NCBI RefSeq assembly: GCF_000756655.1
Contig: NZ_ARXU01000002.1
Location: forward strand, 372,001-436,000
Origin: Alcanivorax jadensis T9
Lineage (GTDB): Bacteria > Pseudomonadota > Gammaproteobacteria > Pseudomonadales > Alcanivoracaceae
Direction of reading: 5' to 3'
DNA: 64,000 nt
Part shown: in pieces, positions 24,798 through 42,098 of the stretch
Numbering within the stretch: the stretch's first letter is position 1
Layout: each line of letters begins with the position of its first letter
Program-made: the position numbers and the translations under genes
Notes under the pieces: generated by a model
The model's database searches: none
Seen by the model: only the letters and a program-made list of their open reading frames with translations
Told to the model about the DNA's origin: nothing

Positions 24798-25132
24798 GTC
24801 AAACATCGTCCCTGGGCATGGCCCGGGCGGTTTATGTACTTCACCTGGTGGGGCTGATCACCGGTGGGCTGACCGCCGTTGCCGGAGTTATCATTGCCCA
24901 CCTGTACGCCGGGGATGCAACACCGCCCCTGCGTGAGCACTTCCGCTTCCAGTACCGCACCTTCTGGATAGGCCTGCTCTACAGCGTCATTGCCGGCATC
25001 ACCACCCTGGCCTTTATCGGCTGGCTGCTGATGGCGGTGCTCACCATCTGGTGGATCGTGCGCTGTGCCCGCGGCCTGAGCACCCTGAATCGCAACGTGG
25101 CACCTGCCCGGGTCGACACCTGGGGCTTTTGA
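24794..25132 (+). CDS. DUF4870-like small membrane protein
   Basis: A 112-aa protein with three to four hydrophobic segments (VYVLHLVGLITGGLTAVAGVII, FWIGLLYSVIAGITTLAF, FIGWLLMAVLTIWWIVR) and the REHFRFQYRTFW stretch between, which is typical of the DUF4870/Tic20-like group. Function unknown. Its ATG overlaps the Kunitz gene stop, so the two are in one operon. Confidence 0.8.
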   Translation: MSQTSSLGMARAVYVLHLVGLITGGLTAVAGVIIAHLYAGDATPPLREHFRFQYRTFWIGLLYSVIAGITTLAFIGWLLMAVLTIWWIVRCARGLSTLNRNVAPARVDTWGF

Positions 25133-25190
25133 GCTGTCACAATATTGTCACCCTGGCCCGCCAGACTGGTGGGCCAATCAAGGAGATACC

Positions 25191-25886
25191 ATGCTGTCCC
25201 TGCGCCTTATACCGCTCGTCCTCTGCGCCCTGTTCCTGTCCGCCTGTGCCCGTAGCCCGGTGGTCCAGCTCTATGATGGCCCCGCCAAGTCCGACAGCCA
25301 GGTGCTGACCGTGCGGGTGCCCAGTGAAATAGAAGTGTTCACCATCAACGGCAAGGAAGTGGATGGCGTGAATACCTTCTTCGCCACCGACTTCAAGGAA
25401 CTCAAGCTGGCCCCCGGCCGCTACGAAATCCTCGCCTACTACAAGGAGCTGTGGCAGCTGGATGCGGACAACCACGACATCGTGAAAACCAACCCGGCCA
25501 ACTTCATCGTCGATGGCAAGGCCGGCGAGAAATGGCAGCTGGATTACGACAAGCCGGCCAACGTGGAAGAGGCGCGCGCCCTGGAAGATTCCTTTACCGG
25601 CCAGGCCATCAACACCGCCACCGGTGAAAAAGTCGCGGCCAAGGAATCCAACCTGATCCTCAAGCGCGGCTTCCTCGCTCCCATCACCGGCGAAGAGGTG
25701 AGCACCGCCTCCAGCAAGAACATCGCCCCCCAGCAAAGCGCCTCTCCGGCACCGACCGAGCCTGCTGCGGCAGCGGCAGCAGCACAACCGGCACCCGCCG
25801 CCAGCTACCTGGACACCCTCAAAGCCCAATGGAAGCAGGCCACCCCGGAAGAACGCCGGGAGTTTCTGCAGTGGATTTCGCAGTAA
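25191..25886 (+). CDS. DUF2057 family lipoprotein
   Basis: A 231-aa protein with lipobox LSAC (Cys19). The DUF2057 (YccT-type) core includes VPSEIEVFTINGKEVDG, LAPGRYEILAYYKELW and ILKRGFLAPITGEE. An Ala/Pro-rich linker follows and the end reads EERREFLQWIS. The role is unknown. GGAG lies 9 bp before the ATG. Confidence 0.85.
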   Translation: MLSLRLIPLVLCALFLSACARSPVVQLYDGPAKSDSQVLTVRVPSEIEVFTINGKEVDGVNTFFATDFKELKLAPGRYEILAYYKELWQLDADNHDIVKTNPANFIVDGKAGEKWQLDYDKPANVEEARALEDSFTGQAINTATGEKVAAKESNLILKRGFLAPITGEEVSTASSKNIAPQQSASPAPTEPAAAAAAAQPAPAASYLDTLKAQWKQATPEERREFLQWISQ

Positions 25887-25900
25887 CCGGCTACCTGATA

Positions 25901-25927
25901 ACGGAAATGGCTTAACGCCATTTCCGT
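25901..25927. terminator. Hairpin terminator after the DUF2057 gene
   Basis: ACGGAAATGGC-TTAAC-GCCATTTCCGT is an 11-bp perfect stem, 15 bp after the stop; the T tract is weak (TCTTCC). Confidence 0.75.
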
Positions 25928-25944
25928 TCTTCCCTACGAAGCCG

Positions 25945-26168
25945 CTGTAGGAACGTAGCGTAGCGGAGTAACGACCGTAGGTCGGCCCGAAGGGTGAGCG
26001 TAGCGAATAACACCGCTTGAGGTGCGAACCTTGCGAAGCAAGGAATCGCCCAGAGGGCGATCAGGACTCGCCGAACCTAACAGGTTTCTCCAGGTAGGCC
26101 TGACATTCTCTGAGAATTTTGTCGCCTCGCTGCGCTCGGTTCGCGCCTCAAGATGCGCTCCTACAGCG
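25945..26168. repeat. GTAGGA(A/G)C hairpin repeat, long copy
   Basis: Starts CCGCTGTAGGAACGTAGCG and ends GCGCTCCTACAGCGG, with the inner elements CGCTTGAGGTGCGAACC, GGAATCGCCCAGAGGGCGATC and GTCGCCTCGCTGCGCTCGGTTCGCGCCTCAAG. It closes the region just outside the left boundary of the island. Confidence 0.8.
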
Positions 26169-26202
26169 GCCTTGTAGATGAATTAGTCGCAACGTCCGCC
26201 GA

Positions 26203-26262
26203 TCACTCCCCCTGAATCGTCGCCACCACCCGCCTCGCCCCACCATGATCCCGGTGCTCGCA
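26203..26262 (-). pseudogene. yjbQ: 3' end of yjbQ, cut off by the island
   Basis: On the minus strand 26262-26203 encodes CEHRDHGGARRVVATIQGE and a TGA stop. This is the standard C-terminus of the YjbQ family (GIYLCE-HRDHGG...QGE). The rest of the gene, ending GTWQGIYL, lies at the other island end (39750-40136). The two pieces join in frame if the sequence between 26263 and about 39771 is removed. Confidence 0.93.
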
Positions 26263-26263
26263 C

Positions 26264-26296
26264 TGACATCAACCCCGAATGACACACTTTTTGACA
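26264..26296. other. Left end of the island (candidate recombination site)
   Basis: Going inwards: TGACATCAACCCCGAA, TGACACAC, then TTTTTGACACCCC. The TGACA words repeat three times in 33 bp and TTTTTGACA also occurs near the right end. These may be recombinase binding sites. Confidence 0.5.
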
Positions 26297-26556
26297 CCCC
26301 TATTATCCACTCCTGGCGCCCTATTAGCAGCATAGACGCATGTCAAAAGATATCCGCTGAATCAGGAGAGAAATTTGACAAAATAAGGGAGCCGTCATCA
26401 ATTCAGCTGTCATTCTCAACATTTGCCTACACAACCATTCGCCCTATGAACCAGTTGGGGATATCTTGGCATGACAAAGTAACCTTGATCCGCCCTCGCA
26501 AGATTCACGTGCGTATTAAAGCGTGGGAAAGAAAAAAGCCAACGGCGTTATGATCA

Positions 26557-26820
26557 TCATCGAATCTCCATCATTAGGCGAGGAGCAGGTCGCAAACACA
26601 GTTCTTTGACTGTGAAGTCACCGTCCACTGCCGCGATCACCGTATTCCTATGCTTTGCTTCGAGAGAGCTGGCTCCAACCAGGATGTCGCCTGGGCAAAT
26701 CCCAGCATCCACAATGGATGTTCTGGCGGCACGAACGAAGAACGTGGCGGTCGGACGGGTAACACAGCTCATTGAGATCCAGCCGAACCTCCTCAAAGCC
26801 CTGGGCGGGGGACGGATGAT
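26557..26820 (-). pseudogene. umuD: Frameshifted umuD remnant
   Basis: The C-terminal S24 peptidase part of UmuD is readable on the minus strand in two frames. First HPSPAQGFEEVRLDLNELC (about 26818-26762), then after a shift near 26763 VTRPTATFFVRAARTSIVDAG, ICPGDILV, and NTVIAAVDGDFTVKELCLRP (to about 26580). The Ser and Lys of the catalytic pair can still be found (TSIVDAG, FTVKEL). The N-terminal cleavage region and the last 30 or so residues are missing, and no umuC follows. It is therefore a dead fragment carried in the island. Confidence 0.85.
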
Positions 26821-26974
26821 CTGCAACGGCACAACAAACGGCAATACAAATACTGTACAAAAAAACAGCACGCTCAATAAACCACAACCATTCCCAATTA
26901 GATGGCCTTAGGCTATCAATGACACTAAACTTAGCTCCATATCCAGCCCATTTTTTTGCGTATGGAGGCAGCCC

Positions 26975-27199
26975 ATGCTGCAGAGAGTGTTGTGCGGCTA
27001 CACCACCGCCATCAGCAAGTTCAAGTCGAATCCCAGTGCCGCTTTGGCTGAGGCTAACGGCCAGGCCATTGCGGTTTCCTCGAACAATCAGATCCAGTTC
27101 TATGCCGTCCCAACCGCTCTTTTCGAGAAAATGGCGGAGTTATGCGAGACTGCGCAGCGGAACGAAGCTCCAGGCAAGGCGACCCCCAATAATCTATAA
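26975..27199 (+). CDS. Phd/YefM-like antitoxin
   Basis: A 74-aa protein with the Phd/YefM pattern: ISKFKSNPSAALAEANGQAIAVS (N-terminal DNA-binding part), then IQFYAVPTALFEKMAEL. Such proteins bind their own promoter and neutralise a partner toxin, but no toxin gene follows: the next gene is the restriction enzyme 68 bp on. It could be an orphan, or a small regulator of the restriction gene. There is a second in-phase start at 26964 region; the ATG at 26975 is preceded by GGAGGC. Confidence 0.75.
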   Translation: MLQRVLCGYTTAISKFKSNPSAALAEANGQAIAVSSNNQIQFYAVPTALFEKMAELCETAQRNEAPGKATPNNL

Positions 27200-27267
27200 C
27201 CAACTCCTTGTCACACCGAACATAGCCAGTAATTTCCCTTGCTAAGAAAAGAATGATTGGAGAATCA

Positions 27268-30200
27268 ATGTCATCGCCACTTTACGAGCTGCTGGAACGC
27301 TATCGCACCCACGCCAAGACTGATCGTGAGATGGGAGAGTATTTCGAGCTCTTCGTTAAAGCCTATTTTGAGCATGACGATATTCAGAGGCAGCATTATG
27401 ACCAGGTGTGGACCTATGGTGACTGGGCCGAAGAGCATGGACTGAGCCGTAAGGACACAGGCATTGATCTGGTGGCGCGTCTTCGGGGAGCCCCGGAGAC
27501 CTTCTGTGCAATCCAGTGCAAGTTCTATAACCGCGATTATAAACTCCACCGCAAGGATCTGGATGGCTTCTTCACCGCCTCCAACCGCAAGAGCTTTACC
27601 CGGCGGATCATCGTCGATACGACTGAAACGGAGCTGGGCACGAACGTCCAGGCGCTCCTGGATGATGCAGAACAGTACGTTGAAACCTACCGGATCAGCC
27701 TACGAGACCTGGAAAGCAGTCGGATTGACTGGACACTGTTCTCCGAGAAGCAAGAGATTGCTTACCAAGCCAAGAAACAGCTCCGGCCCCACCAGGAAGA
27801 AGCCCTCGCGGACGTTCGAGCGGGGCTGGGAAAGGCCGACCGCGGGAAACTCATCATGGCGTGTGGAACCGGGAAGACCTTCACAAGCCTCAAGATCGCT
27901 GAGGACCTGGCAGGCCCCGGGAAGCGGGTGCTTTTCATGGTACCGTCGTTAGCCCTCATGTCACAGACCGTCACCGAATGGTCAAATGATGCGACCGTAC
28001 CGCTCCGCTCCTTCGCGGTATGCTCTGATGCACAGGTTGGCAAGCGCAAGAAAGGCGATGACGTAGCCGACCTTCAGCAGCATGATCTGGCGTTCCCTGC
28101 TACCACCGACCCTGCCAAACTCGCGGCGGAGGCCGGACAAGCCGACCCTGACGCCATGACAGTGGTTTTCTCCACTTACCAATCCATCCAGGCCATCTCC
28201 CAGGCACAACAGGAGCATAGTCTGCCGGAATTCGATCTGGTCATCTGCGATGAAGCCCACCGCACCACCGGTGTCACCTTGTCCGGCGAGGACGAATCCA
28301 ACTTTGTCCGCATCCACGACAACGGCCACGTCATGGCCAAGAAACGCCTCTATATGACCGCCACACCCCGAGTATTTGGCGACAATGCAAAAGGGAAGGC
28401 TGATGAGAGCGGGCACGAGCTGTGCTCAATGGACGACAAGTTAAAATTTGGAGAGGTGTTGTTTTACCGGGGCTTCTCCTGGGCAGTAGAGAACGACCTC
28501 CTTACCGACTACAAGGTAATCATTCTCGCCATGGACGAAGGCCTGGTGGGCCGCGGTGTCCAGCGGGCGCTGTCATCGGGAGACAACGAGCTGCAGCTCG
28601 ATGACGCAAGCAGAATCGTAGGCTGTTACAAGGCCCTGACCAAGGCCACCCTGAAGGACGACATCCAGTATGACGCCAAGCCCATGCGGCGTGCCCTGGC
28701 GTTCTGCCGTGACATTCGTTCCTCGAAGCTCATCCAGAGCCAATTCGCTGAAGTGGTTGAAGAGTATGTGAACTACCATAGTGAAGAGGATGGAGCACCT
28801 GAGCTGCAATGCTCCCTGGAGCATGTGGACGGCACCTTTAATGCCAAGACCCGCAACCGCCTGCTGGACTGGCTCAAAGCCGAACCAGAGCCCAATGAAT
28901 GCCGCATTTTGACCAACGCACGATGCCTTTCCGAAGGGGTCGATGTGCCGGCACTCGACAGCATCATGTTTCTCCATCCAAGGAAGTCACAAATTGATGT
29001 GATCCAGTCGGTTGGCCGGGTTATGCGTAAAGCTGGGCCGAGTAAGCGAATGGGATATGTCATTCTGCCGATTGGTGTGCCTCACGGCGTCACCCCGGAA
29101 GAAGCGCTCAACGACAATGAGCGTTACCGGGTTGTCTGGCAGATCCTTAATGCTCTCCGAGCACATGATGAAAGTCTTGATGCGACCATCAATCGTGCCT
29201 CTCTAGGCGAGGATGTCTCCGATAAAATTCAGGTGGTAGGCATCAACAATGAAGAACTGTCCGCTGTCACAGCAGAAGTGAACAACCTTCCCTCCCGGAG
29301 CAGTGGAAATCCCGATAAAGCAAGCACTGGGATTGGAACTCAGGGGGAGCCTGAGAACCAGCCTGAGGATAATGGCTCCCCTCCTACCCAGCTCGGAATC
29401 GACTTCAATGCTGAAATCAGCGAGGCCATCCTTGCGAAGCTAGTAAAGCGCTGTGGAACCCGCGATTACTGGGAAGACTGGGCGACCGATATTGCTGACA
29501 TTGCCCGCAAGCACATCACTAGAATCAAGGCGACCCTGGAGGAAGGCGGCAAGGCCCGTACTGAGTTCAATGCCTTCCTGACTGAGCTACGCGACGATCT
29601 CAACGACAGCATCAGAGAGGATGATGCTGTAGAAATGCTCGCCCAGCACATCATCACACGGCCGGTGTTCGAGACCCTGTTTGAAGGCCACCAGTTCACC
29701 AAAGAGAACCCGGTCTCCAAAGCCATCCAGCGGATACTGGATGTACTCGATGAGCACCGGATCGACAAAGAGTCTCAATCCCTTGAGAAGTTCTATGAGA
29801 GCGTGAAACGGCGCTCCCAGGGAATCCAAACCAGCCATGGCAAGCAGCGCCTGGTGGTCGAACTCTACGATAAGTTCTTCCGCAACGCCTTTCCACGGCT
29901 GACCCAGCGCCTCGGTATTGTTTACACGCCGGTTGAGGTGGTGGATTTCATTATCCACTCCGTCAACGATATCCTGCAGAGTGAATTTGGACAGACCCTG
30001 AGTAGTGAGGGGGTACACATTATTGACCCCTTTACCGGCACCGGCACTTTCATCACACGCCTCCTGCAGTCAGGCCTAATCAAGCCAGAAGAGATGACCC
30101 GGAAGTACCAGAAAGAGATCCACGCGAACGAGATCGTGTTGCTTGCCTATTACATCGCCGCGATCAACATCGAGGCCGTCTACCACGATAATACAAAGGC

Positions 30201-32154
30201 AGAATACACCCCATTCGAGGGCATTTGCCTGACCGACACCTTCCAGATGTACGAGAAGGAAGATATGGTTTCCAGCTTGCTTGCGGACAATTCTGAGCGT
30301 CGGAAGCGACAGAAAGAACTGGATCTGAAGGTAATCATTGGGAATCCGCCATATTCTGGCCAACAAAGTAGCGAGAATGAAAACAATAAGAACACCTCAT
30401 ATCCAGGTTTGGATGCCCGTATTCGCGACACTTATGCTGAAGCATCCAGCTCTAAACTAGCCAAAAGCAACTACGATTCCTATGTCCGCGCTATCCGTTG
30501 GGCATCTGACCGGATCGAAAGAAAAGGGGTAGTTGCCTATGTTACAAACGGTTCTTTCATAGACTCGAAGAATCTGGATGGGCTTAGAAAGTCACTCTGT
30601 AAAGAGTTCAGCAAAGTTCTCGTATTTAATCTGCGAGGGGACGCAAAGAAAACCGGTGAAGATCGACGCAAAGAAAAAGGGAATATTTTTGGTGAAGGGT
30701 GCCGAACCCCCGTGGCCATTACGATATTGATAAAGAATTCCGAAATGCCAAACCAGGGGAGCCTCCATTATCACGCTGTTGGCGATTATCTAACTAAAGA
30801 AGACAAGTTGAGGCTAATCGCAGATCACGCAAGCATCTCATCTGTACCATGGGAGGAGATGACCCCAAACACAGAAGGTGATTGGATTAACCAGAGAGAT
30901 CCTGCTTTCCAACGCTTCCTGCCACTTGCTGAACGTGACTCTTCTAATGGCACGTCTGTATTCACATCTAATTCCTACGGTGTCGTTACCAACCGAGACC
31001 CTTGGGTCTATAACAATTCCGCTGCAAAACTTGAGAAATCGGTGAAAAATCTGATTCGAGCCTACAATGAAGAGTGTGAGAAATACCGCAAGGCCAGTGA
31101 CGGATTAGGTAAAGGTGCCAAGCCCTCTCTGGAGGATGTTGTATCCAACGACCCGAAGCGCATCAGTTGGACTCGGGCTCTTAAGAATGATGCAAAACGG
31201 GGTAAGGATATTCAATTTGACCCTGATAACATTGTAATTGGTACGCACCGGCCATTTGTCCGACAATACATGTACTTTGATCGCCGTCTGAATGAAATGG
31301 TTAACCTCACAAAGCGGATGTTCCCCACGAAAAAGCATGAAAATATTGTAATTTCATGTACCGGAGTGACCGACCGCAAGGGATTCTCCTGCCTCGTGGC
31401 CAACCAAGTTCCCAACATGCATCTGACAGACACGGGCATGTGCTATCCGCTCTACTTTTATGAGGACAGGGATAGTGCTGCAGATTTGTTCGATGCCGCA
31501 GAAGATGACCCATATATTCGTCGGGATGGCATCACAGACTGGTCACTATCCGTCTTCCGCCATCACTACAAAGATAAATCCATCTCCAAGGAAGATATCT
31601 TCTGGTATTCCTACGGGGTATTGCATGCTCCAGAATACCGCAACCGCTTCACCGCCGATCTACAAAAGGTTCACCCGCGCATTCCTCTCGCACCTGATTT
31701 TCGCGCTTTCAGTGAAGCTGGCCGAGCCCTAGGACAGCTTCATCTCAATTTTGATAGCGTTGAGATGCACCCGGTCGAAATTAAGATATCGGGAGGTCGC
31801 AGTTATGAGGAACTAACCACTCAAGACTTTAGGGTGAATAATAAATGGAAGTTCGGAGGGAAGGCCAAAGACAAAGACAAATCCATTGTTAAATATAACA
31901 GCACAATCACCATAGCTGGCGTACCCGTAGATGCCTACGACTACGTTGTAAATGGAAAGCCCGCTTTGGAATGGGTGATGGAGAGTCAGCTGGTCAAAAC
32001 GGACACAACCAGCGGTATTGTCAATGATGCGAACGACTACGCCATAGAGACCATGGATTACCCAGCCTACCCGCTCGAACTGTTCCGGCGTGTAATTACA
32101 GTGAGCCTTGAAACGATGAAAATCATCAGGAATCTCCCCGAGCTTGACATCTAA
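27268..32154 (+). CDS. Type ISP (single-polypeptide) restriction-modification enzyme
   Basis: One protein of about 1628 aa holds nuclease, translocase and methylase, as in the LlaGI/LlaBIII class. An Mrr-like nuclease is at the N-terminus (Asp67 in GIDLV, QCK at 83-85). A superfamily 2 helicase follows: GTGKT at 200-204, DEAH at 328-331, MTATPRVFG, and QSVGRVMRK. An N6-adenine methylase has DPFTGTGTF near residue 919 and GNPPYSG near 1024. The last 400 residues should hold target recognition. GGAG lies 6 bp before the ATG at 27268; an ATG 5 codons earlier lacks one. It should methylate host sites and cut foreign DNA. Confidence 0.94.
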   Translation: MSSPLYELLERYRTHAKTDREMGEYFELFVKAYFEHDDIQRQHYDQVWTYGDWAEEHGLSRKDTGIDLVARLRGAPETFCAIQCKFYNRDYKLHRKDLDGFFTASNRKSFTRRIIVDTTETELGTNVQALLDDAEQYVETYRISLRDLESSRIDWTLFSEKQEIAYQAKKQLRPHQEEALADVRAGLGKADRGKLIMACGTGKTFTSLKIAEDLAGPGKRVLFMVPSLALMSQTVTEWSNDATVPLRSFAVCSDAQVGKRKKGDDVADLQQHDLAFPATTDPAKLAAEAGQADPDAMTVVFSTYQSIQAISQAQQEHSLPEFDLVICDEAHRTTGVTLSGEDESNFVRIHDNGHVMAKKRLYMTATPRVFGDNAKGKADESGHELCSMDDKLKFGEVLFYRGFSWAVENDLLTDYKVIILAMDEGLVGRGVQRALSSGDNELQLDDASRIVGCYKALTKATLKDDIQYDAKPMRRALAFCRDIRSSKLIQSQFAEVVEEYVNYHSEEDGAPELQCSLEHVDGTFNAKTRNRLLDWLKAEPEPNECRILTNARCLSEGVDVPALDSIMFLHPRKSQIDVIQSVGRVMRKAGPSKRMGYVILPIGVPHGVTPEEALNDNERYRVVWQILNALRAHDESLDATINRASLGEDVSDKIQVVGINNEELSAVTAEVNNLPSRSSGNPDKASTGIGTQGEPENQPEDNGSPPTQLGIDFNAEISEAILAKLVKRCGTRDYWEDWATDIADIARKHITRIKATLEEGGKARTEFNAFLTELRDDLNDSIREDDAVEMLAQHIITRPVFETLFEGHQFTKENPVSKAIQRILDVLDEHRIDKESQSLEKFYESVKRRSQGIQTSHGKQRLVVELYDKFFRNAFPRLTQRLGIVYTPVEVVDFIIHSVNDILQSEFGQTLSSEGVHIIDPFTGTGTFITRLLQSGLIKPEEMTRKYQKEIHANEIVLLAYYIAAINIEAVYHDNTKAEYTPFEGICLTDTFQMYEKEDMVSSLLADNSERRKRQKELDLKVIIGNPPYSGQQSSENENNKNTSYPGLDARIRDTYAEASSSKLAKSNYDSYVRAIRWASDRIERKGVVAYVTNGSFIDSKNLDGLRKSLCKEFSKVLVFNLRGDAKKTGEDRRKEKGNIFGEGCRTPVAITILIKNSEMPNQGSLHYHAVGDYLTKEDKLRLIADHASISSVPWEEMTPNTEGDWINQRDPAFQRFLPLAERDSSNGTSVFTSNSYGVVTNRDPWVYNNSAAKLEKSVKNLIRAYNEECEKYRKASDGLGKGAKPSLEDVVSNDPKRISWTRALKNDAKRGKDIQFDPDNIVIGTHRPFVRQYMYFDRRLNEMVNLTKRMFPTKKHENIVISCTGVTDRKGFSCLVANQVPNMHLTDTGMCYPLYFYEDRDSAADLFDAAEDDPYIRRDGITDWSLSVFRHHYKDKSISKEDIFWYSYGVLHAPEYRNRFTADLQKVHPRIPLAPDFRAFSEAGRALGQLHLNFDSVEMHPVEIKISGGRSYEELTTQDFRVNNKWKFGGKAKDKDKSIVKYNSTITIAGVPVDAYDYVVNGKPALEWVMESQLVKTDTTSGIVNDANDYAIETMDYPAYPLELFRRVITVSLETMKIIRNLPELDI

Positions 32155-32274
32155 ACCCGGCTAACAGCGTGACATTTTGACCTACCGGGCGGATGGAGCG
32201 AAGCAGACCAATTGAGTTCTGCCTAGATAGACAGCATAACCTGATTGAATTTTGCTTATGTTTGAGGGAAGGAA

Positions 32275-33399
32275 TTGGAGAGGCAAACAGTGGGATATGA
32301 AGATTTTGATGCACTGCTAATGCTCCCTGCAGACTTTCCTTATGCCGACCTCCAAGCGGTATCCCTAATCTTAGATAATGAGAACGTATTCGTCCCTGGC
32401 TATATACCACCTGATGTTGGCCTCTATCACGTCGATGGTTTTATCTATCATGCTTGGGTAGAAAATTCCAAGACTGTGCTTCTCCCGGATAGAAACATTG
32501 TTTCCCGGTTGGCTAAAATTGCCAAAGGAGAATCAGTGGCCAACAACGGGGATGTCCACAGCCGTAAAGTTGCGGCAATTCTGGCATTCGCCCAATGCCT
32601 TGATATTCAGATAGAACCATCTATTGCTTTTCATGAGTTGGCCCCTCATCAGGGAAACTCTGAAGCAATAGATGAGCTTTCTTGGTTCCGTGTCGCTGAC
32701 AATGGCTCTCCCAAAGAGTGGCTTGCTTTTGCACTCAGGGAAGCAGATCGCATTAAAACCATTGCCCCCCCACAACCAATTGATTCAATAGATCTGGCCA
32801 AGCCACTTAAGCGCTGGAGGCGCAATTATACGGCTGCCTTAAAAATTGCATCACTAGAACTTGCACAAAACATTAACGCCCTTGACAAGGTCTTGGCGCT
32901 ATTCAGATGGATGTATTCGGATTTTATTTTGGCAGGCCCGGCAGCCATCCTAGCCTGCGTTTACTTTGCCCCCAACTCCCCACCAAAGAAAGGACTATTT
33001 AAGAGCTTGCGCTCACCAACCAGAGAGAGAGCCATCGAAGGAATAAAAAATGCTGCCTGGGACATTACACATTTAAGCAATTTCGTTCAGCATATTAGTG
33101 CTGAAAAAGAAAATAGCGGACGTCGGTTCATTTTCGCCACCCTTGATGAGAGCCTTCGTGAAATTGCCCGTATTCTGATAGGGCAGACCCATGACATCCC
33201 TCCTCAAGAGGAGTTGTTTTTGTTCTTAAAGCAATGGTGGCCTGCAGATGATGCACAACGAATTTCAGCCACCTGGTTTGAATACACCAATAAAACTCGG
33301 AATGCTGACTGGTGGGATCAGTATAAAGACCGGCCTGACTACGTTGGAGAAATAGCTTCTCAGATCGAGAAGGATATTCTGGCATGGAGATCTAAATAA
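32275..33399 (+). CDS. Unknown protein next to the restriction enzyme
   Basis: A 374-aa protein I cannot assign. Visible blocks are VLLPDRNIVSRLAKIAKGE (about residues 65-83), which recalls the start of a PIN-like or metal-dependent fold, then CLDIQIEPSIAFHELAPHQGN (near 108-128), a central helical part, and a Trp-rich end (FLKQWWPADD, NADWWDQYKD). It lies 120 bp after the restriction gene on the same strand and before the DUF2384 gene. A defence-accessory role is only a guess from location. GGAGAGG precedes the second possible start; AAGGAATTGGAG covers the first ATG-like position at 32275. Confidence 0.7.
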   Translation: MERQTVGYEDFDALLMLPADFPYADLQAVSLILDNENVFVPGYIPPDVGLYHVDGFIYHAWVENSKTVLLPDRNIVSRLAKIAKGESVANNGDVHSRKVAAILAFAQCLDIQIEPSIAFHELAPHQGNSEAIDELSWFRVADNGSPKEWLAFALREADRIKTIAPPQPIDSIDLAKPLKRWRRNYTAALKIASLELAQNINALDKVLALFRWMYSDFILAGPAAILACVYFAPNSPPKKGLFKSLRSPTRERAIEGIKNAAWDITHLSNFVQHISAEKENSGRRFIFATLDESLREIARILIGQTHDIPPQEELFLFLKQWWPADDAQRISATWFEYTNKTRNADWWDQYKDRPDYVGEIASQIEKDILAWRSK

Positions 33400-33826
33400 A
33401 CCACAAACCCCATATTGAGACAAAGAGTTATCTAAATTTAGGGATCCCCTGACCCCCCCCTGAATTTTCCAAGTTGGATTTCCAAACCTATTTTGCAAAT
33501 AGCCCGGTCAGCTCTCGGCCTGCTTCACATGCGAAACCAAAACCGACGCAATAGACCTATAGGAAAACCAGTTTAATAGTAGCTGCCGCGCTAGTGAAAA
33601 AATCGAGCTTTAGGGCACGGCGAACACTTTCCGGCATGGTTTTTTTGGTATCGGCGACAAGGATTACCATGGCTGCTCTTTTAGCAAAACTTCCTTGCCA
33701 CGGCATGGTCATAGATCTACCTTACGCTGGTAACCTGTCTGGCGCTCTTTTCAGAATTAACCCCCCTTGCCATTCGATGCAAGATTAGTGAACAAATTGA
33801 GCCTTATTCTAAATATTTGAGTTTTT
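33400..33826. other. Gene-poor gap inside the island
   Basis: No convincing gene. It contains a run of C (TGACCCCCCCC near 33450) and a 64-codon open frame at 33594-33788 without a known signature or good start signal. The A+T-rich part just before 33827 probably holds the promoter of the next gene. Confidence 0.5.
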
Positions 33827-34213
33827 ATGGATATTCAGAAAAACACCCAAACCTATGATCGCGAAAAGGTCAGTAAGATGCTGATGGTACTGTTTTCGCA
33901 TTGGGGCCTTGGCACAGAGGAACAGTTGATCCTGCTTGGGATGACTAAGGGTGATCGGGACACTTTGGCTCGATATTGCGAAGAATGGACTCTACCCAAT
34001 GACAGGGACAAATTGGAGCGAGCTGGAATTCTACTTGAAATCCATAAATCTCTGCGCTTACTGTTTCCCAACAATCGTGAATTGGCTTATGACTGGATGT
34101 CGCAGCCCAACCAGGCCTTCGAAGGGATCACTCCTGTTCAACAGATAGATAAGCTAGGGATGCAGGGAATGTATATGGTTAGGGCCTATCTGCGCCACCA
34201 GATAGAGGGTTAG
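33827..34213 (+). CDS. MbcA/ParS/Xre-type (DUF2384) antitoxin-like protein
   Basis: A 128-aa protein with an N-terminal helix-turn-helix-like part and the C-terminal DUF2384 block: LLEIHKSLRLLFPNNRELAYDWMSQPN, AFEGITPVQQIDKLGMQGMYMVRAYL. Such antitoxins pair with RES-domain NAD-degrading toxins encoded next to them. No RES gene is here; the recombinase operon comes next on the opposite strand. It may be an orphan or a regulator of the island. Confidence 0.82.
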   Translation: MDIQKNTQTYDREKVSKMLMVLFSHWGLGTEEQLILLGMTKGDRDTLARYCEEWTLPNDRDKLERAGILLEIHKSLRLLFPNNRELAYDWMSQPNQAFEGITPVQQIDKLGMQGMYMVRAYLRHQIEG

Positions 34214-34264
34214 TTATCGATTGTATAGCAAGCCTCTTTTGGACAAAACGAATAAGTAAGAACC

Positions 34265-34663
34265 TCAAAACTTGGCCACATCACCATCCGAAAGAAGGTT
34301 TATCTGGTCTCTCAACTCGTCGATTAGTTCCTGCTGGGAGTGGCAAATGGATAGGAGACGATCTCTCTGTTTCTTACAATCAGCCAGCCTTTGCCGAGCA
34401 GTACGGTTTCGACTTTTCACGGATGCACTCTGACCTAACTTACTTTTTTCCCTTTCCGAAGCCATGTACGCCTTGATCCGCTGAAGTAACTCAGGGTACC
34501 GATCGGATCTGAGAGCGGATGGCGTCTTACCAGCCTCTTTCGCCACGTTGGAGAGACTAACAGGAGTGTCAGACGGAAGGTTCAACGGCCTACCTTTCTT
34601 CAAGCGTTCGAACGCCTCCTCGAAAATGTCAATTGCCCGCTTCTTCTTCTCTTTCGATAGCAT
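34265..34663 (-). CDS. Small accessory protein of the recombinase operon (GmtX/TnpC-like)
   Basis: A 132-aa basic protein, last gene of the four-gene operon. It has a helix-turn-helix-like stretch (SLSNVAKEAGKTPSALRSDRYPEL, near residues 36-59) and a C-terminal coiled coil (LADCKKQRDRLLSICHSQQELIDELRDQINLL). This matches in position and general form the small third member of gamma-mobile-trio (GmtX) and Tn554-type (TnpC) operons. Its start overlaps the preceding recombinase by 35 bp. The exact family is inferred from context. Confidence 0.72.
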   Translation of the reverse strand: MLSKEKKKRAIDIFEEAFERLKKGRPLNLPSDTPVSLSNVAKEAGKTPSALRSDRYPELLQRIKAYMASEREKSKLGQSASVKSRNRTARQRLADCKKQRDRLLSICHSQQELIDELRDQINLLSDGDVAKF

Positions 34664-36668
34664 CTATATAGACCCCGATGGCATATATTTCTTTCTTCAG
34701 TGCCCCAACCCTCATGCTGCCGGGAGGGAGTCGTTCAATCTCGTTATGATGAAATTCCCGCAGTCTGAGCAACTTATCTTTATTCTTACGCTTGAAGATA
34801 GCATCCGCACAAACTCCTCCACCATCACCTACCATGCACTTCGAAATGGACTCGATCCCTCCGTACTCGCAGGAACCAGCCTTCATACAGAACCCAAGTA
34901 GTGTTCTTCGAACTCCTACCTGGCCATCTCGAATTAGCTTCATCAGCTTTTTTTCCTCTCCAGCATCAACGAGGTCGATTACCGTATCAAAACCCAGGAT
35001 CTTTCCATGCGGCCTTACGTTATTCACTTCATCATCGATAACCTCAATTAGCCGTTGATATACGTTGTTGTAAGACTCCAAAACTAGCGCTGCCTCCGCA
35101 ACAGAATTCAGACGCAAATTGGTATAGTGCCTTCCGTAGTAGAGAGTCATATTCCTCGATAAATGCTTCATTTGATGCTGAATGGAGCTAACCGAGACTT
35201 CCCTAGATGAAAACATATTAACCGCAAGCGTGCGCCTCAACTGATGGCAGGAAAATCGCCAGGGCTTCCCCACCTCGAACCACTCCCGCTCATAAAGATT
35301 CGGCGTTAGCGAGAGAGCCATTTGGGCGTCTTCTTCCGTAATCCGAATTACGTCATCATCAAACAACTTGAGGCCTCGACGGAGAACATTGTCATAATCC
35401 AGCGCCCTGTGGCTAACCAAAGCTCCGTGACGCATAAAAGATGATCGAACTTTACTTGAATTGGATGACCAAATCTCTGTTGAGGGAAACATCAAGTAGG
35501 GGTTTTCTCTGTCTTCTCTCGATAGATCTATATCTTCCCGCAAGACGGACAATCGGAGGCGAGCGATACACGTGCATATATCAATAGCTTTCTTAATCGT
35601 ATTCGGGACAACCCACCTTGCATCAGAGTCTTCGTCGGTTTTCGTGGTCTCTCCGATAAGAATGCAAACCTCCCCTAGATACTTATCAATCTCCACATGA
35701 AAACAATCACGTCTAAGTGATGTCGCCTCCTTCTTACGCTGCAAGCTAAAGTTTAAAATAAATATTATTGAAGCGTCCCTGACAAACGTGAGGTACTTTG
35801 AAAAGGATTGTGTACTGTAGCTATATCCATAGACAGACTTCTTCTCAGGCTCAAGCCATTTATCGAACAAACTAAACAACCTTCTTTCATGCAAGAAAGT
35901 GTCAAAATTCCCTTTGTACAAAACACGGTTATCTCGGTACAAATTTCTCTCTGAAAATGGAGATTGATAGCAGGGAGAAACCACCTTCAAATTGTGAACA
36001 TATGCTTTATGCATCCACTTGAATGCTTTCTCTATAGCAGCTTGGTGCTGAAGGAAATCATTTAGCACCTCACTCAACCTCTCAACTTGATAGCTCCAAA
36101 TACGAGGGGGGATATATGGGTGCTGAACAGCCTCATGCTCCTTAACCTCTCGCGCCAATAATTTCAAAAATCCATCACTGGCTATAGAAAAACCAAGCTC
36201 TCTTTCATAGAGCTTCAGCTTATGAAGCTGTGATATACTATGCTTAATTCTAACTGATTTAATAACGTCAAAAACGGCAGAAAACACCCTTGGGAATTTG
36301 TGAAGATCAGAGATCTTTATATCATAACGATCACAGACCCCACCGATTTTCACCAACAAATCAAAATAACTTCGGCAACTCTTTACCCTCCCAGGAAAAA
36401 GCCTGGGATGGTATATTATGAAAACCATGGCCTGCTTAATAAGGGCTATGTTTTCACAGGAAAGTCCATGCCGACCGAAGTTGAATCCGTAGTAACCAAT
36501 CGCAGAGAAATCCCAGTAATCATCGCCATAGACCGACAAAGGATTACCTTTCCGGTCAACTGTAACTGGCCAGCAATTTGGCGGAGGAAATGAAGGCGGA
36601 CGATACGAGGGCGACTGGGGCGTAACCAAGGTTGTTGGCTCCATGAACTGCAGGACTAACTCCATCAT
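34629..36668 (-). CDS. Large tyrosine recombinase-family protein (third in operon)
   Basis: A 679-aa protein with a C-terminal tyrosine-recombinase domain. Visible catalytic set: Arg311 (QRKKEATSLR), His475/Arg478 (CHQLRRTL), a further basic/His near 500-502 (HQMKHLSRN), and Tyr510 or 511 (MTLYYGRHY). Past it lies a Cys-rich block (FCMKAGSC, SKCMVGDGGGVC), which may bind zinc. Its ATG directly follows the stop codon of the gene before (TAGATG). I think it is the GmtZ-like member, but that is inference. Confidence 0.85.
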   Translation of the reverse strand: MMELVLQFMEPTTLVTPQSPSYRPPSFPPPNCWPVTVDRKGNPLSVYGDDYWDFSAIGYYGFNFGRHGLSCENIALIKQAMVFIIYHPRLFPGRVKSCRSYFDLLVKIGGVCDRYDIKISDLHKFPRVFSAVFDVIKSVRIKHSISQLHKLKLYERELGFSIASDGFLKLLAREVKEHEAVQHPYIPPRIWSYQVERLSEVLNDFLQHQAAIEKAFKWMHKAYVHNLKVVSPCYQSPFSERNLYRDNRVLYKGNFDTFLHERRLFSLFDKWLEPEKKSVYGYSYSTQSFSKYLTFVRDASIIFILNFSLQRKKEATSLRRDCFHVEIDKYLGEVCILIGETTKTDEDSDARWVVPNTIKKAIDICTCIARLRLSVLREDIDLSREDRENPYLMFPSTEIWSSNSSKVRSSFMRHGALVSHRALDYDNVLRRGLKLFDDDVIRITEEDAQMALSLTPNLYEREWFEVGKPWRFSCHQLRRTLAVNMFSSREVSVSSIQHQMKHLSRNMTLYYGRHYTNLRLNSVAEAALVLESYNNVYQRLIEVIDDEVNNVRPHGKILGFDTVIDLVDAGEEKKLMKLIRDGQVGVRRTLLGFCMKAGSCEYGGIESISKCMVGDGGGVCADAIFKRKNKDKLLRLREFHHNEIERLPPGSMRVGALKKEIYAIGVYIDAIEREEEAGN

Positions 36669-38417
36669 CTATCCCTCAAGAAATTCTAATATCCCTGACC
36701 AGTGAGGATGATAATGACCTTCGGAAACACGCATCTCGGCCTCGTTCACCCATTCTTTCCGTTTATCATTTCCCTTACCAAACCATGCGATCTTTTCTGA
36801 GATTCGTTCTATCACCATATCGGCGGAGACAGTCTCCCTATTGGTAATACCAGCCACTTCAATCATTTTTAGATGGCGAAACGAAACCAGTGACCAGACG
36901 TAATCCATCGAATCAATATCCCTCATATTTTTGCACCATAGACAACCTGACTGATTGCTGCAATTAGGCAAAACAACCGAAGGCGGCTTGTCTTCCATGG
37001 GCAGAGGATCGCCAGAGCATTGCCCCGAGATTAGGGAAGCCCTCATATCACCCTTCTTGATTGGGTCTCGGCCATGCCAGAAGCGCGTAATTTCTCCTGC
37101 GGCACGCTGCTGGCTTGGGCGCTCGTACTTATCCCGAAGCGTCTCCTTGACGTGCTGGAGCATTTCGGCCGTTAATGCTTCGTCCCCTCCTGACCGTCGC
37201 AGAAACCAATTAGCTCGTGTATTTCTGAGCGTTCTCGGTTGAACCCAAGGAATATCGTGTTTTACTAATAGCTTACGGAGCGAGCTATATAGCACTCTTC
37301 CTCCTGAAGACAGCCTTCCGCCCATATCACACCACGGAAATAGAAGATCCGATTCCGGGAAAAAGTGGCCTATGAACTCTAGATACTTTTGAAGGTGTGG
37401 CTTGTACGACTGATAGATGCTAAACATCACTTCACCACCACGACGGTTTTTGAACGCTCTAACATGCCATTTATCTTCAATAGGCTTGTACTTGAAGCCG
37501 GATCGTTTAAGCCCGTTGGCAGTCGTCACATTCATTCCACTTTGCGCGATGAAGATTAAGAACTCTGCTGTCACCCTGAGCGTTACAAAATAGCCACGCT
37601 TTGTCCCTATGATGCTTTTGACTGGTGATCGTGACTTTTTTATCTGAATAACCGACCGCTTTTCCGCTTTCGTCAATTCATCCCACGGTTCATAAATAGC
37701 ATCCTCGCTAACAACCCTCGTCTTATTTATGCTTATGAAAATCTCATTATCTTTTATTAATTTATTCCTAACAGGTATTTTTAAGGGAAGCTGGCCAAGA
37801 ACCGCATCAACGGTAATACCATCAGCAATATCAATCAGAAAGCTTCCCATTTTATAGGTGTCTTCGAGGCTTTGTTTATCCACCCCTATGCCAACAGCTT
37901 TCTTCGGTACTGGAGGACACTTCAATCTTGTTCTATTAATCAAAGACACACTCTTAGGTATATCAAGAATTTCTCCGAACATAGTAGAAAGTCTAGAAGC
38001 ATACCCAAAAGCAGTTGCTTTATTTAATTCAGGCGGCTTTTTATTACACTTTTGGAAAAGATGCTCACAGAACTCAAGGTATGAATCAACGAGATTATCC
38101 AGACTAACTTCCCTTTTTAATTGATCTACAAAGTCAAAAAACAATTGCAAATTAGCAACATCCCCCTCTACAGTTGCAAGCGACAATCCGGAAATCAATC
38201 TCATCTCCAAGAAATCTCTTATCTCAATAATCAAGTCTAGCCGCTGTATCTTTTCCGGCTGAATATCTCCTTGCTCTATTTGGCGAAAAAACCATCTCGG
38301 ATCTAGGCCCTTTCCATTACTGGCATACGTGCGAACGTAAAGAAATCTACGAAGGTCGAAACGCACCTTGCCATCAACTTTCACATGTCGGACTCTAAGA
38401 TCAGGAATACTATTCAT
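36669..38417 (-). CDS. Degenerate tyrosine recombinase-family protein (second in operon)
   Basis: A 582-aa protein of the integrase fold. Where the first catalytic Arg is expected it has SGMN (Asn296), and the HxxR box reads RNTR (Arg398, Arg401); a Tyr lies at 431 (LRDKYERPS). The active site is therefore atypical and it may be a partner rather than a full recombinase. A C-terminal Cys motif (Cys486, 492, 495 in NCSNQSGCLWC) with RDIDSMDYVWSL follows, as in the middle gene of other multi-recombinase cassettes. The start overlaps the first gene by 8 bp. Confidence 0.83.
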   Translation of the reverse strand: MNSIPDLRVRHVKVDGKVRFDLRRFLYVRTYASNGKGLDPRWFFRQIEQGDIQPEKIQRLDLIIEIRDFLEMRLISGLSLATVEGDVANLQLFFDFVDQLKREVSLDNLVDSYLEFCEHLFQKCNKKPPELNKATAFGYASRLSTMFGEILDIPKSVSLINRTRLKCPPVPKKAVGIGVDKQSLEDTYKMGSFLIDIADGITVDAVLGQLPLKIPVRNKLIKDNEIFISINKTRVVSEDAIYEPWDELTKAEKRSVIQIKKSRSPVKSIIGTKRGYFVTLRVTAEFLIFIAQSGMNVTTANGLKRSGFKYKPIEDKWHVRAFKNRRGGEVMFSIYQSYKPHLQKYLEFIGHFFPESDLLFPWCDMGGRLSSGGRVLYSSLRKLLVKHDIPWVQPRTLRNTRANWFLRRSGGDEALTAEMLQHVKETLRDKYERPSQQRAAGEITRFWHGRDPIKKGDMRASLISGQCSGDPLPMEDKPPSVVLPNCSNQSGCLWCKNMRDIDSMDYVWSLVSFRHLKMIEVAGITNRETVSADMVIERISEKIAWFGKGNDKRKEWVNEAEMRVSEGHYHPHWSGILEFLEG

Positions 38418-39711
38418 TGGTTACATAATCAATCAATGCATCTGGGTTTGTTTCTTTCCCCGAAAAAAAATCAAAAAACTCATCAGCTAACTTCTCTTTT
38501 ATCGGCTCGTTTTGCACGAATTTGACGTACTTCCATGTGGTGGCCTCATTCTTGTGGAGCATTGCATCCCTGACAAAAACGATGGCGTCATCAGTATGCG
38601 CCATGGTCTCTATGCACAACCTCATCAACTGGGAGCCAAACGTAGCTCGGGTCTGATGGAACTTAAGTCGCTCAAATTCCCCAAGGCCGCTCTTTACTAG
38701 ATTTTTTCTAAGTTCCGACATTAGACGCGTGAACGACCCATCTTCATACTTCCTTCCTCGCGTGGTTAGAAATAGCAGAGTCCTGTCCTCATCGTCGGCC
38801 TTAGCCTGGCGAGCCAACCGTCTAGCACTCGTGGCATATTTCTGTAGAAGATGAATGACGGGCAAAGGGAATAAGAGGTCACCGCTGACGCGGAATTTCG
38901 TCTTAACTGGTGTAGGTGGACCTACAGGTACACGTTGCAAATTCGGTATGGATGGATCACTACGAGCCGAATCAAGCGTCAATAGTCGAAGGGTGCGGAT
39001 CGTCTCAATACGGGCACCAGTGAAGAAGCCAATCACGAACATCAAGTAAAGCTCAGTCATCCCTTGGCGATTAAGGAAAGCGAGCAATGTCTTACGAGCG
39101 GAGTCACTTAGCGGAAGAAGCCCATCTTCCACCGAATCTCCCGGCCGTTTTCTGTTGGGTATGGCTAGATCGCTGGATGTGACAGCTAGTGTCCTTGGTA
39201 GGCCGATCAAGGTATGTCTTCGGATGATCTTCTGCTGATCTTCCCAGAGGTTTTTTCTGTCAATCAGACCTTCTCTCCGGGCCCATCGGTAGAAAGCCAC
39301 CACAGAACTCATACGGGCAGTGGCGGTACTTGGTGACAAACATCCATCGTCACGTCTTTCAATGAGATTGCCCCGGTAGCGAACGAGGCATCGTTGCCGC
39401 TTCTTCTGGGGGAAGTGCCGCCAATCCAAATTCTCGACTTCTAGGAACTCAGCATAGTCGCGCAGGTGATTCATCAGCGCATTAACGGTCTCGATATTTT
39501 TCCCAGCCTCTAGACGTTGGACTGCATAGACATTGGCCTCTATCCACGGCTCTCCATCCATGCGAAAAATCTGCGGACAATCGGGAATTTCGGTCTGCGT
39601 GCTATCAACAACCCATGGCAACCCAAACTCATTCGAACTACCAGGGTCGAACCTCATGGGCTGATAGTGAAACTTTTCTCGTATCGCCACCCTTGAACAC
39701 CATAAAGACAC
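38410..39711 (-). CDS. Tyrosine recombinase (first in operon, GmtY/TnpA-like)
   Basis: A 433-aa protein with an N-terminal SAM-like core-binding part (about 60-150) and a complete catalytic domain: Arg234 (TGARIETIRTL), His352/Arg355 (FHQTRATFG), His386 and Tyr395 (LHKNEATTWKYVKF). It is the best candidate for the active integrase. The ATG lies about 60 bp inside the right end of the island, so the recombination site and the operon promoter overlap. It starts the tightly packed operon that runs leftwards to 34265. Confidence 0.9.
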   Translation of the reverse strand: MSLWCSRVAIREKFHYQPMRFDPGSSNEFGLPWVVDSTQTEIPDCPQIFRMDGEPWIEANVYAVQRLEAGKNIETVNALMNHLRDYAEFLEVENLDWRHFPQKKRQRCLVRYRGNLIERRDDGCLSPSTATARMSSVVAFYRWARREGLIDRKNLWEDQQKIIRRHTLIGLPRTLAVTSSDLAIPNRKRPGDSVEDGLLPLSDSARKTLLAFLNRQGMTELYLMFVIGFFTGARIETIRTLRLLTLDSARSDPSIPNLQRVPVGPPTPVKTKFRVSGDLLFPLPVIHLLQKYATSARRLARQAKADDEDRTLLFLTTRGRKYEDGSFTRLMSELRKNLVKSGLGEFERLKFHQTRATFGSQLMRLCIETMAHTDDAIVFVRDAMLHKNEATTWKYVKFVQNEPIKEKLADEFFDFFSGKETNPDALIDYVTNE

Positions 39712-39717
39712 CTATCA

Positions 39718-39772
39718 TGTCAAAAACATCTCATATCGGGTGTAATGCATCAAATTGATTTTTCGGGTGTAA
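39718..39772. other. Right end of the island (candidate recombination site)
   Basis: Read inwards on the minus strand: TTACACCCGA (39772-39763) and again TTACACCCGA (39745-39736), 27 bp apart, then TTTTTGACA (39726-39718). The direct repeats look like recombinase arms; TTTTTGACA is shared with the left end. Confidence 0.55.
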
Positions 39773-40136
39773 GATAAATCCCCTGCCAGGTGCCCAGCGC
39801 CAGTCGGCCATTGCTGATTGGCAGGCTCAGTGACGGGCCGATCAGCACGCTCTTGATATGGGCGGGCATGTCGTCCGGGCCTTCCAGGGTGTGTTCATAG
39901 TAAGGCGCGTTTTCCGGCACCATCACATTCAGATGCCGCTCCAGATCGCCACGCACATCCGGGTCGGCGTTTTCGTTGATGGTCAGCGACGCGGAGGTAT
40001 GCTGGATAAACAGATGCAGCAAGCCCACCTTCACATCGGCCAGTCCTGGCAGACCATCGATTATATCTCGTGTTACCAGATGGCAGCCCCGCTTTCGAGC
40101 CGCCAGGCTGATAGTTGTCTGAAACCACATAATCAA
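39750..40136 (-). pseudogene. yjbQ: 5' part of yjbQ, truncated by the island
   Basis: YjbQ-family proteins (secondary thiamine-phosphate synthase activity) are about 139 aa. Here the frame keeps [38 protein letters not shown] and [13 protein letters not shown], then runs into island DNA as TPEKSI and a stop. The lost end contains the conserved RDHGG segment, so loss of function is likely. The start may be 2 codons in (MWFQTT). It overlaps the ApbA-like gene stop by 4 bp, so the two were one operon before the insertion. Confidence 0.92.
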
Positions 40137-41113
40137 CTCACTGTCTGTATGTCGACAAACGCCCGCTGATGCAACTGTGCCAGATGGACACTATCGCAGT
40201 GGCGCCTGAAGTCTTGTACATAGAGATCCGTCTGGGAGCGAACCTTGGTAAAATGTTCGCGCAAATAAGCCTCCAGAGAAAAGGGCAACGCTAATGGCGC
40301 CAGCCCCAAAATCATGCGATAAGGCCAGTAACCGAGAAGGCCCGCCGCACGCTTCATGGCTTTCTGTTCCTGTGGCGCTTCATTGGCCGCCAGCGCCTCG
40401 AGCAAGTCCTTTTGTGCGGCCACCAGTAACGCCAGCAACGTCCGGTCACTCCGGAGCTGTGCAAAACGCCAGTCGCTGGCATCAAGAGCACACAAAAACG
40501 TCATCAACACAGCATTGGGCAAGCGGGAACTGGCCAGTGCATTCGCAACGCTCTTGCTGTAAATACCGCTTCCGTTGAACAGCGACAAGACATCGTCGAG
40601 CCGTGCCTTGTCACCCGATAGTGGCATGGCAGTCGGAGGCAAAAACCAGGCTATCGACAGGGGCGTGGCGGATGCCACTGGCGTCTCCCCCGGCAAGGGA
40701 TGGTAATAGCTGATCAGATTGATCATCCCCCTGACGACTTGTGATGCTGGCCAGAACCGCAACAGTAACCGGGAATCCTCCTCACTGGGTTGCAGCATGA
40801 CCAGCGTTGCATCACAGATAGCCCGGTAAATGGAATCGAAAGGTAGCTGCCGCAGCGCATCCGAAGGAATCGCCAGCAACACCTGATCCCACTGCTGCTT
40901 TCCTACCGCCTGCCAGTCTGAAATCAGGGAAAAATCACTGAATTGGCTCACATTGTCACGCCATAAACGTCTCTTGCGGACAAGCGTCACCCCCTGATTC
41001 AATGTTGCCCGGTGCTTTTCCTTGATAAAAAACGTCACACTATGACCGGCCTGCTGAAAACAATGGCCGTACACTAATCCTACTGCCCCTGCCCCAACGA
41101 TCAGGATATTCAT
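40133..41113 (-). CDS. ApbA/PanE-like 2-dehydropantoate 2-reductase family protein
   Basis: A 326-aa protein with a Rossmann start ([24 protein letters not shown]). The rest is only loosely like ketopantoate reductase; the C-terminal catalytic Lys and Ser-rich block of true PanE are not clear. It may therefore act on another keto acid. It is upstream of yjbQ and once formed an operon with it. Confidence 0.75.
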
Positions 41114-41291
41114 ACCGACACATCTCCAGCTTTATCGGTTAATAACGAGATAACATAGACCTGCATCCGCGATTCCACGGCAGCCCTGAAGCCTGAATAT
41201 GGCGTATCAAGGCCTAGAGTAGAGCCTGTGAGATTGCATGCCACAGGCCGAACAGGACAATCCTCGCCCAGACGAGTAGAAAGGTTGAATC

Positions 41292-42098
41292 ATGAAACTG
41301 AAAGGACAGACCATCGTACTGACCGGCGCCTCCAGTGGCATCGGTGCCGAGGCAGCGAAAATCATGGCGCGCCGGGGCGCCACCGTGTGTCTGGTAGCGA
41401 GGCGGGAAGAGCAGCTGCGGGAAGTCCAGGAACTCATCGAAGCCGACGGCGGCTGCGCCTTTATCTACCCCTGCGACTTGAGCGACAACGTGGCCATCGA
41501 GGCCTGCGCCGCACGGATTCTCGCCGAGCAGCCGCGTATCGATGCGCTGGTGAACAATGCAGCCCATTCCATCCGTCGCCCCATAGAACAATCCCTGGAT
41601 CGCCTGCACGACTATCAGCGCACCGTGCAGTTGAACTACATCGGCGCCGTGGCCATGACCCTGAAACTGTTGCCGCGTTTTCTCGAGCAGGGCCACGGCC
41701 ATGTGGTGAATATTTCCAGCCTCTCCACCCAGGTGCCCATCCCCCTGTTTTCTGCCTACCTGGCCAGCAAGAGCGCGCTGGAATCTTTCACCCGTTCCCT
41801 GCAGGCGGAAATGGGTCATCAGGGTATCAGCACCACGGTGGTGTACTTCCCCATGGTGCGCACGCCCATGTCATCGCGCACCGCCATTTACAAATACATG
41901 CCGATGATGCACGTGAAAAAGGCCGCCGGCTGGATCGTCGAAGCCTGCGAAAAACGCCCGGCCCGCATCGCCCGCCCCATGGGCAAACTGGGCAGCGTAC
42001 TGCTCGCCGCCCTCCCCGGCCCGGCCACAAAATTGCCGCAGCCATTGTTCAGAGGCATGGACAAACTGCTGGCCAGCCAGCTTAAAAAGAAAGGTTGA
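41292..42098 (+). CDS. SDR family oxidoreductase
   Basis: A 268-aa short-chain dehydrogenase. Cofactor motif TGASSGIG (residues 12-19), NNAA, active Ser in ISSLSTQ and Tyr-x-x-x-Lys in YLASK are all present. A C-terminal extension (LLAALPGPATKL) is amphipathic, as in membrane-linked SDRs of this type. The substrate is unknown. GAAAGG is 6 bp before the ATG. Confidence 0.9.
   Translation: MKLKGQTIVLTGASSGIGAEAAKIMARRGATVCLVARREEQLREVQELIEADGGCAFIYPCDLSDNVAIEACAARILAEQPRIDALVNNAAHSIRRPIEQSLDRLHDYQRTVQLNYIGAVAMTLKLLPRFLEQGHGHVVNISSLSTQVPIPLFSAYLASKSALESFTRSLQAEMGHQGISTTVVYFPMVRTPMSSRTAIYKYMPMMHVKKAAGWIVEACEKRPARIARPMGKLGSVLLAALPGPATKLPQPLFRGMDKLLASQLKKKG

Follow-up and report, generated by a model that had tools for sequence, protein, structure and literature searches.

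The window, that is, the whole 64,000-nucleotide stretch of Alcanivorax jadensis T9 DNA analysed here, contains a yjbQ gene divided into two parts, both of them read on the minus strand. The N-terminal part (39772..40130) runs up to GTWQGIYL, in such a way that its last base falls within the Leu codon, and it matches UPF0047 (Pfam, 5.3e-37) and TIGR00149 YjbQ (3.6e-37). After this motif the frame adds six element-encoded residues, TPEKSI, before a stop that ends at 39750. The original prediction had placed the N-terminal half at 40136-39750; the reading of YjbQ up to GTWQGIYL was confirmed, and the stretch 39771-39750 was found to be already element DNA. The C-terminal part (26203..26263), delimited by the uninterrupted allele described below and by the join, encodes 19 residues, CEHRDHGGARRVVATIQGE, followed by a stop. 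When the 13,508 bp between both parts (26264-39771) were removed in silico, a single open frame of 139 aa was obtained that is recognisable as YjbQ, supporting the proposal that an island sits inside a protein gene, with both halves still recognisable and joining in frame.

An uninterrupted allele was found in another genome of the genus (G001), whose 3.35-kb yjbQ locus shows GGGGATTTATCTGTGCGAGCACC at the insertion point, with the same downstream DNA after it. The three main alignments between this locus and the joined flanks cover 1418 bp (95.4% identity), 1063 bp (91.7%) and 627 bp (91.2%), the last one being that which crosses the join. By this comparison the edges of the island, which had been proposed to within a few bases, were set to the base. 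In the genus survey yjbQ was present in 17/17 genomes, the window's included, and it was intact in the 14 that provide the uninterrupted alleles expected in relatives, and split in three (G000, G002 and G010). The joined 139-aa frame, the empty G001 allele and the intact genes of 14/17 genomes together indicate that the island was truly inserted, and into a gene which remains whole in most relatives. A second yjbQ copy elsewhere in the window genome was ruled out, as its sole match is the broken gene.

No tRNA gene was detected in the window by ARAGORN, in agreement with the earlier claim that the insertion is not at a tRNA, and no Rfam family reached the gathering score in 25000-41500. The island has a GC content of 0.483, lower than that of the 10-kb flanks on either side (0.594 and 0.563). 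A promoter scan of 39300-40300 gave no hit, against 0.9 expected from shuffles. Directly downstream of the C-terminal part of yjbQ (25900-26177) there are inverted repeats with arms at 25934-25955 and 26156-26177 (86%), together with a perfect 12-nt hairpin at 25900-25928.

Just inside the N-terminal part of yjbQ start four abutting or overlapping minus-strand genes, which encode proteins of 433, 582, 679 and 132 aa. The first, intA (38410..39711), encodes a tyrosine recombinase, also recognised by Pfam, and the third, intB (34629..36668), a recombinase with a long N-terminal region in which Pfam matched a short stretch below the cut-off; the alignment shows R-H-R-H-Y kept in both. The product of the second gene, tfp (36669..38417), is recombinase-like and retains a later histidine and a tyrosine, but lacks the arginine of box I and the first histidine of box II. 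The fourth gene, srap (34265..34663), encodes an auxiliary factor and overlaps the end of intB. Neither the second nor the fourth protein gave any Pfam match.

This plan, in which three recombinase-like genes are accompanied by a small fourth one, is shared with the GInts, elements with three integrases (ginABCD) that excise as a circle, in some strains leaving an empty site, that have short imperfect end repeats, and that also insert in or near the end of a gene (PMC5385486). The island was first assigned to them on the basis of the three-recombinase plan, and it also agrees with such an origin that relatives are found on a Burkholderia plasmid, since the published survey has GInts, not strand-biased circularizing integrative elements (SEs), in Betaproteobacteria. 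However, ginA and ginB are described as encoding the catalytic proteins and GinC, the third, as deficient (PMC5385486), whereas in the window the second protein is deficient and the third complete, a layout that sets the island apart from GInts by their published description. The assignment was dropped after this comparison of catalytic residues, and with all four window proteins matching an element that carries a published SE Tfp, a GInt is a very improbable identity for the island.

The layout is the one given for SEs, in which IntA and the long IntB are catalytic (R-H-R-Y) and Tfp is not (PMC9345347, PMC10214605). The second gene of the element on P. aeruginosa pMKPA34-1 encodes WP_034039553.1, given as Tfp of SE-PaeBT2436 (PMC10214605), and the four window proteins are 43, 32, 33 and 41% identical to those of this element, in the same order and with similar sizes, a protein comparison that covers one published SE. 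The likeness to the SEs described in the literature (SE-PaeBT2436, SE-6283 and SE-6945; PMC10214605, PMC9345347) includes the four-gene order, homologous proteins, the catalytic motif in genes 1 and 3 only, and a split attB with 6-mers placed as in SEs. The window element measures 13.5 kb, compared to a published median of 15.7 kb (PMC10214605, PMC9345347), and it differs from those SEs in its target, yjbQ, which is absent from the main texts, and in its cargo, a type ISP restriction-modification enzyme.

On plasmids, 118 records matching intB were detected by tblastn, 86 of them at ≥80% coverage; the pMKPA34-1 element is one of the 118. Among genomes, and counting the window's own, intB matches were found in 2/46 of the family, 5/369 of the class and 20/390 of the order, most of them distant. 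In a tree of 23 intB-type proteins, the window protein groups with those of Halomonas L042 and Aeromonas L044 (100/99); this trio falls within a clade of six rows (98/95), whose sister is the clade containing the published SE, the joint group of 11 rows having values of 100/99.

The ends of the element were read against the G001 allele. With the 6-mers in brackets, the empty site is GGGGAT[TTATCT]GTGCGAGC, attL is GGGGAT[TTATCT]TACACCCGAAAAATC, and attR is GTCATTCGGGGTTG[ATGTCA]GTGCGAGC. In attL the host 6-mer TTATCT (39772..39777, minus strand) stands beside end C (TACACCCGAAAAATC, 39757..39771, minus), in which TACACCCGAA is common to the window, Halomonas L042 and the Aeromonas plasmid L044. 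In attR the 6-bp footprint ATGTCA (26264..26269, minus), different from the target 6-mer, stands beside end C' (TGTCATTCGGGGTTG, 26270..26284, minus). The inserted 13,508 bp (minus strand) hence consist of the element from C to C' (26270-39771, 13,502 bp) and this footprint, and both halves of attB are kept, one in attL and the other in attR, with the flanks aligning over the join.

The near relative L044 lies on the Aeromonas veronii conjugative plasmid pHX3, and its empty site is seen in A. hydrophila pAhD4-1 as GATCGTC[TTGCAT]GACTTGC, the corresponding attL being GATCGTC[TTGCAT]TACACCCGAATAA and attR GGTCATTCGGGGGTA[CTGGCT]GACTTGC. According to the rule published for SEs, the 6 bp of the target end beside C and those of the donor beside C' (PMC10214605, PMC9345347), and the placement of the 6-mers in the window (TTATCT and ATGTCA) and in pHX3 (TTGCAT and CTGGCT) fits this rule.

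The C' of the window element matches its own inverted C at 8/15 positions, a level reached by 1.5% of the 15-mers of the window, against 11/15 in pHX3 and 10/15 in G563, a genome of the same order; so the boundaries rest more on the empty site and on pHX3. The window C' also lacks the terminal GTA of the pHX3 end. Such a degenerate C', together with the presence of a single yjbQ match and a single intB match in the genome, would be expected from a real SE that is dead, fixed in the lineage and producing no circles. By contrast, C' agrees with that of pHX3 at 12/15 positions, as only 8e-06 of the window 15-mers do, and all four core genes have open, full-length frames, with the catalytic residues of genes 1 and 3 in place, which makes a dead element somewhat unlikely. 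From these features, the window element may be currently mobile.

Insertion at the same yjbQ codon was detected in other hosts. In Halomonas salipaludis (L042, NZ_NSKB01000013.1), whose core genes are 75-77% identical to those of the window, the N-terminal part of yjbQ is present and C comes directly after GGGCAT[CTGGCT], this being the one end within the stretch. In G563 the C side reads GGGCAT[ATTCCT]TACACATTAG, and the far end is found around 30.4 kb further on, followed by WEHRHHQGTRQVIVHI; its footprint, CGACGT, is an interpretation, because no empty G563 allele was seen. With the window, these ends show that 3/3 chromosomal members of the clade with the intA-proximal end read hit the same codon of yjbQ. 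The ends of the plasmid members L045 and L047 were not found. Among 17 stretches from the order search, yjbQ was present within two (L072 and L077), and in G577 the yjbQ halves were found further along; a search of 140 genomes of the family of G563 gave two matches, G563 itself and a weak one (4.6e-4).

In Halomonas the yjbQ 6-mer adjoining C is CTGGCT, and the footprint of the pHX3 element is the same. Under the SE rule, CTGGCT lay to the left of C in the donor of the pHX3 copy, as would be the case for a yjbQ insertion with Trp at this codon, which is suggestive of such an origin, and the identity suggests a shuttling of the element between chromosome and plasmid. By a hand estimate, 30/4096 6-mers fit some I-(Y/W/F)-L run, so that one match among the three footprints of the clade has a chance of around 2%, for a coincidence that was noticed post hoc. 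CTGGCT is absent from the nine 6-mers of the 25 intact yjbQ alleles compared, and therefore Halomonas is the single source of this match. The footprints ATGTCA of the window and that of G563 fit none of these 25 alleles.

Regarding the effect on the host gene, an insertion so close to the 3' end could be a harmless, nearly neutral one, in which YjbQ still works with its last 19 residues replaced by six. The repeated use of a site near the 3' end in the three chromosomal clade members would be consistent with this, as would the finding of no further yjbQ copy in the window genome. Against it, four residues of the lost tail (E, H, R and R) do not vary among the 26/26 YjbQ proteins compared (25 relatives and the copy from G010; of the 31 loci, five that were broken or truncated were excluded), so a working truncated protein is unlikely and YjbQ function has likely been lost in the window genome. 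The family carries the NCBIfam name "secondary thiamine-phosphate synthase enzyme", and a functional cost to the host through such a side activity, as originally proposed, is plausible. Nine distinct sequences of the YjbQ family have solved structures in the PDB.

Beyond the core genes, the element carries a plus-strand gene (27253..32154) for a 1633-aa restriction-modification protein of type ISP/IIG, recognised by Pfam and PADLOC (PDLC03597, 2086 bits), which holds nuclease, helicase, coupler, methylase and specificity domains in one chain (Mrr_cat_2, ResIII, ISP_coupler, N6_Mtase and Type_ISP_C in Pfam). The protein matches in 815 plasmid records, with ≥80% coverage in 144 of them, and, judging from its family, it probably guards the host from phage and foreign DNA, in such a way that the window element would be a restriction system travelling on an SE. 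Also on the plus strand, a 374-aa protein (32275..33399) gave no family match; its homologues occur in 11 plasmid records, all typed as conjugative, and the neighbourhoods of three of these 11 showed no annotated partner common to all three. A 128-aa protein (33827..34213, plus) has an Xre/MbcA/ParS C-terminal toxin-binding domain and is antitoxin-like, and a possible 74-aa antitoxin-like protein (26975..27199, plus) was matched weakly by the DnaT and YafN models, with scores under their cut-offs; none of the scanned proteins was recognised as a toxin partner. Outside the element, at 48059-50602 of the minus strand, a lone 847-aa frame stands among speE-like and other housekeeping-like genes (names given by eye); it looks by eye like a P-loop ATPase and is possibly another defence gene.

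By analogy with published SEs, in which the core genes are required for circle formation, the intA-tfp-intB-srap operon would generate a circular copy of the element that includes the 6 bp adjoining end C on its left, the chromosomal donor copy staying in place. The circle would then insert site-specifically, the target here being the GI(Y/W/F)L-coding run close to the 3' end of yjbQ, in such a way that integration would keep the target 6-mer at attL and put the donor 6-mer at attR. The swap in the tail of YjbQ would probably abolish its function, and the host would receive in exchange the putatively protective one-protein system. That the island is an SE inserted site-specifically close to the 3' end of yjbQ is very probable from the gene set, homology, catalytic residues, boundaries, the empty site and the same-codon insertions elsewhere, and its copy-out as a circle would follow the route published for other SEs. 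Transposons of the Tn554 type, including Tn552-II, are described as also carrying unequal short end sequences via a circle, and Tn552-II as bearing a gene like its target gene; unlike the window element, Tn554 has no tfp counterpart, and it is known from staphylococci and enterococci (PMC12486829).

A second lineage, of SE-like elements, cuts yjbQ near codon 85 in five genomes (G002, G010, G505, G577 and G096). Its ends are TACGGGTTATAT-like (TACGGGTGATG in G096) and CCGTA-like (CGTA in G096), and its intB proteins form a separate clade (99/99, four proteins, that of G010 being outside the stretches read). In G002 the catalytic residues are conserved in genes 1 and 3 but not in gene 2. The footprints are GTTGAA (G002), TAGTGG (G010), TCCGTG (G505), GTGACG (G577) and CCGTCG (G096), of which only GTGACG equals its own target 6-mer. 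The two yjbQ halves lie on different contigs except in G002, so their pairing is inferred.

In G002, G505 and G577, intA is located roughly 14-18 kb from attL, unlike in published SEs, whose left end holds the core genes. For G002, in which this distance is around 14 kb, two elements in tandem were considered; however, TACGGGTTATATAG, the end motif, has a single occurrence in the genome, at attL, and no second end was found in the 301 bases read near the start of intA, so G002 is taken as a single element with cargo between C and intA. In this genome intB runs into a presumed IS, and srap was not detected.

A complete yjbQ homologue (58-64% identical to that of G001) is carried in 3/5 of these genomes, G010, G505 and G577 (L035 14823-15242; L077 900-1313; G577:C8:409-816), near or next to srap. 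It directly follows srap in G010 and G505, and it lies around 1 kb from the C-terminal part in G010 and G577. No yjbQ copy was seen in G096, whose assembly is only 81% complete. The lineage is thereby reminiscent of SE-6283, an element that has bcp both as its target and among its own genes (PMC9345347), and it adds cases of an element carrying a copy of the gene that it breaks, in contrast to the window element, which brings no yjbQ copy.

The SE class was already known, and what is new is the yjbQ target, the recurrence at one codon, the second lineage with its replacement copy and the trail of footprints. Literature searches for yjbQ with genomic island and integrase, or with tyrosine recombinase, found no paper, and neither PMC10214605 nor PMC5385486 mentions yjbQ in its main text; it may be named in the supplementary list of SE termini. 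Two lineages at two sites of yjbQ appear to give opposite answers, clipping the tail in one case, and cutting the middle while bringing a full copy (3/5) in the other. We tentatively propose, as a possible reading, that SEs have converged on yjbQ as a docking gene, and that the 6-bp footprints record an itinerary from chromosome to plasmid to chromosome. If so, plasmid copies should carry yjbQ-like footprints, as seen in 1/1 (pHX3), and chromosomal footprints should be mostly plasmid-derived, 6/7 of those read being not yjbQ-like. The travels of SEs would then be readable from the ends of the elements. The exact ends, the two empty references, that of the window and that of its pHX3 relative, and the use of one codon in three hosts allow the 6-bp memory that SEs keep of their donors to be used as a historical record.

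Other relatives were observed in the plasmid and phage records. The Pseudomonas aeruginosa plasmid L045 (NZ_CP104591.1, 8953-20408) contains two different three-recombinase core sets in tandem, one of them near the clade of the window and the other very distant. A Burkholderia dolosa plasmid, L046 (NZ_CP132925.1, 4962-10317), carries an SE-type core whose genes 2-4 are 43-46% identical to a published SE, on a betaproteobacterial replicon, whereas the published survey reports SEs in Gammaproteobacteria only (PMC10214605). Viral contigs searched with an alignment of three intB proteins gave 22 pattern matches and no relatives, and the phage records searched gave one weak tfp relative. This relative (32.7% identity over 97%) is encoded at 8368-10014, minus strand, of L117 (MT835978.1), an unverified 14.3-kb record from human faeces labelled "Bacteriophage sp.", which may represent an element of the SE type and not a phage.
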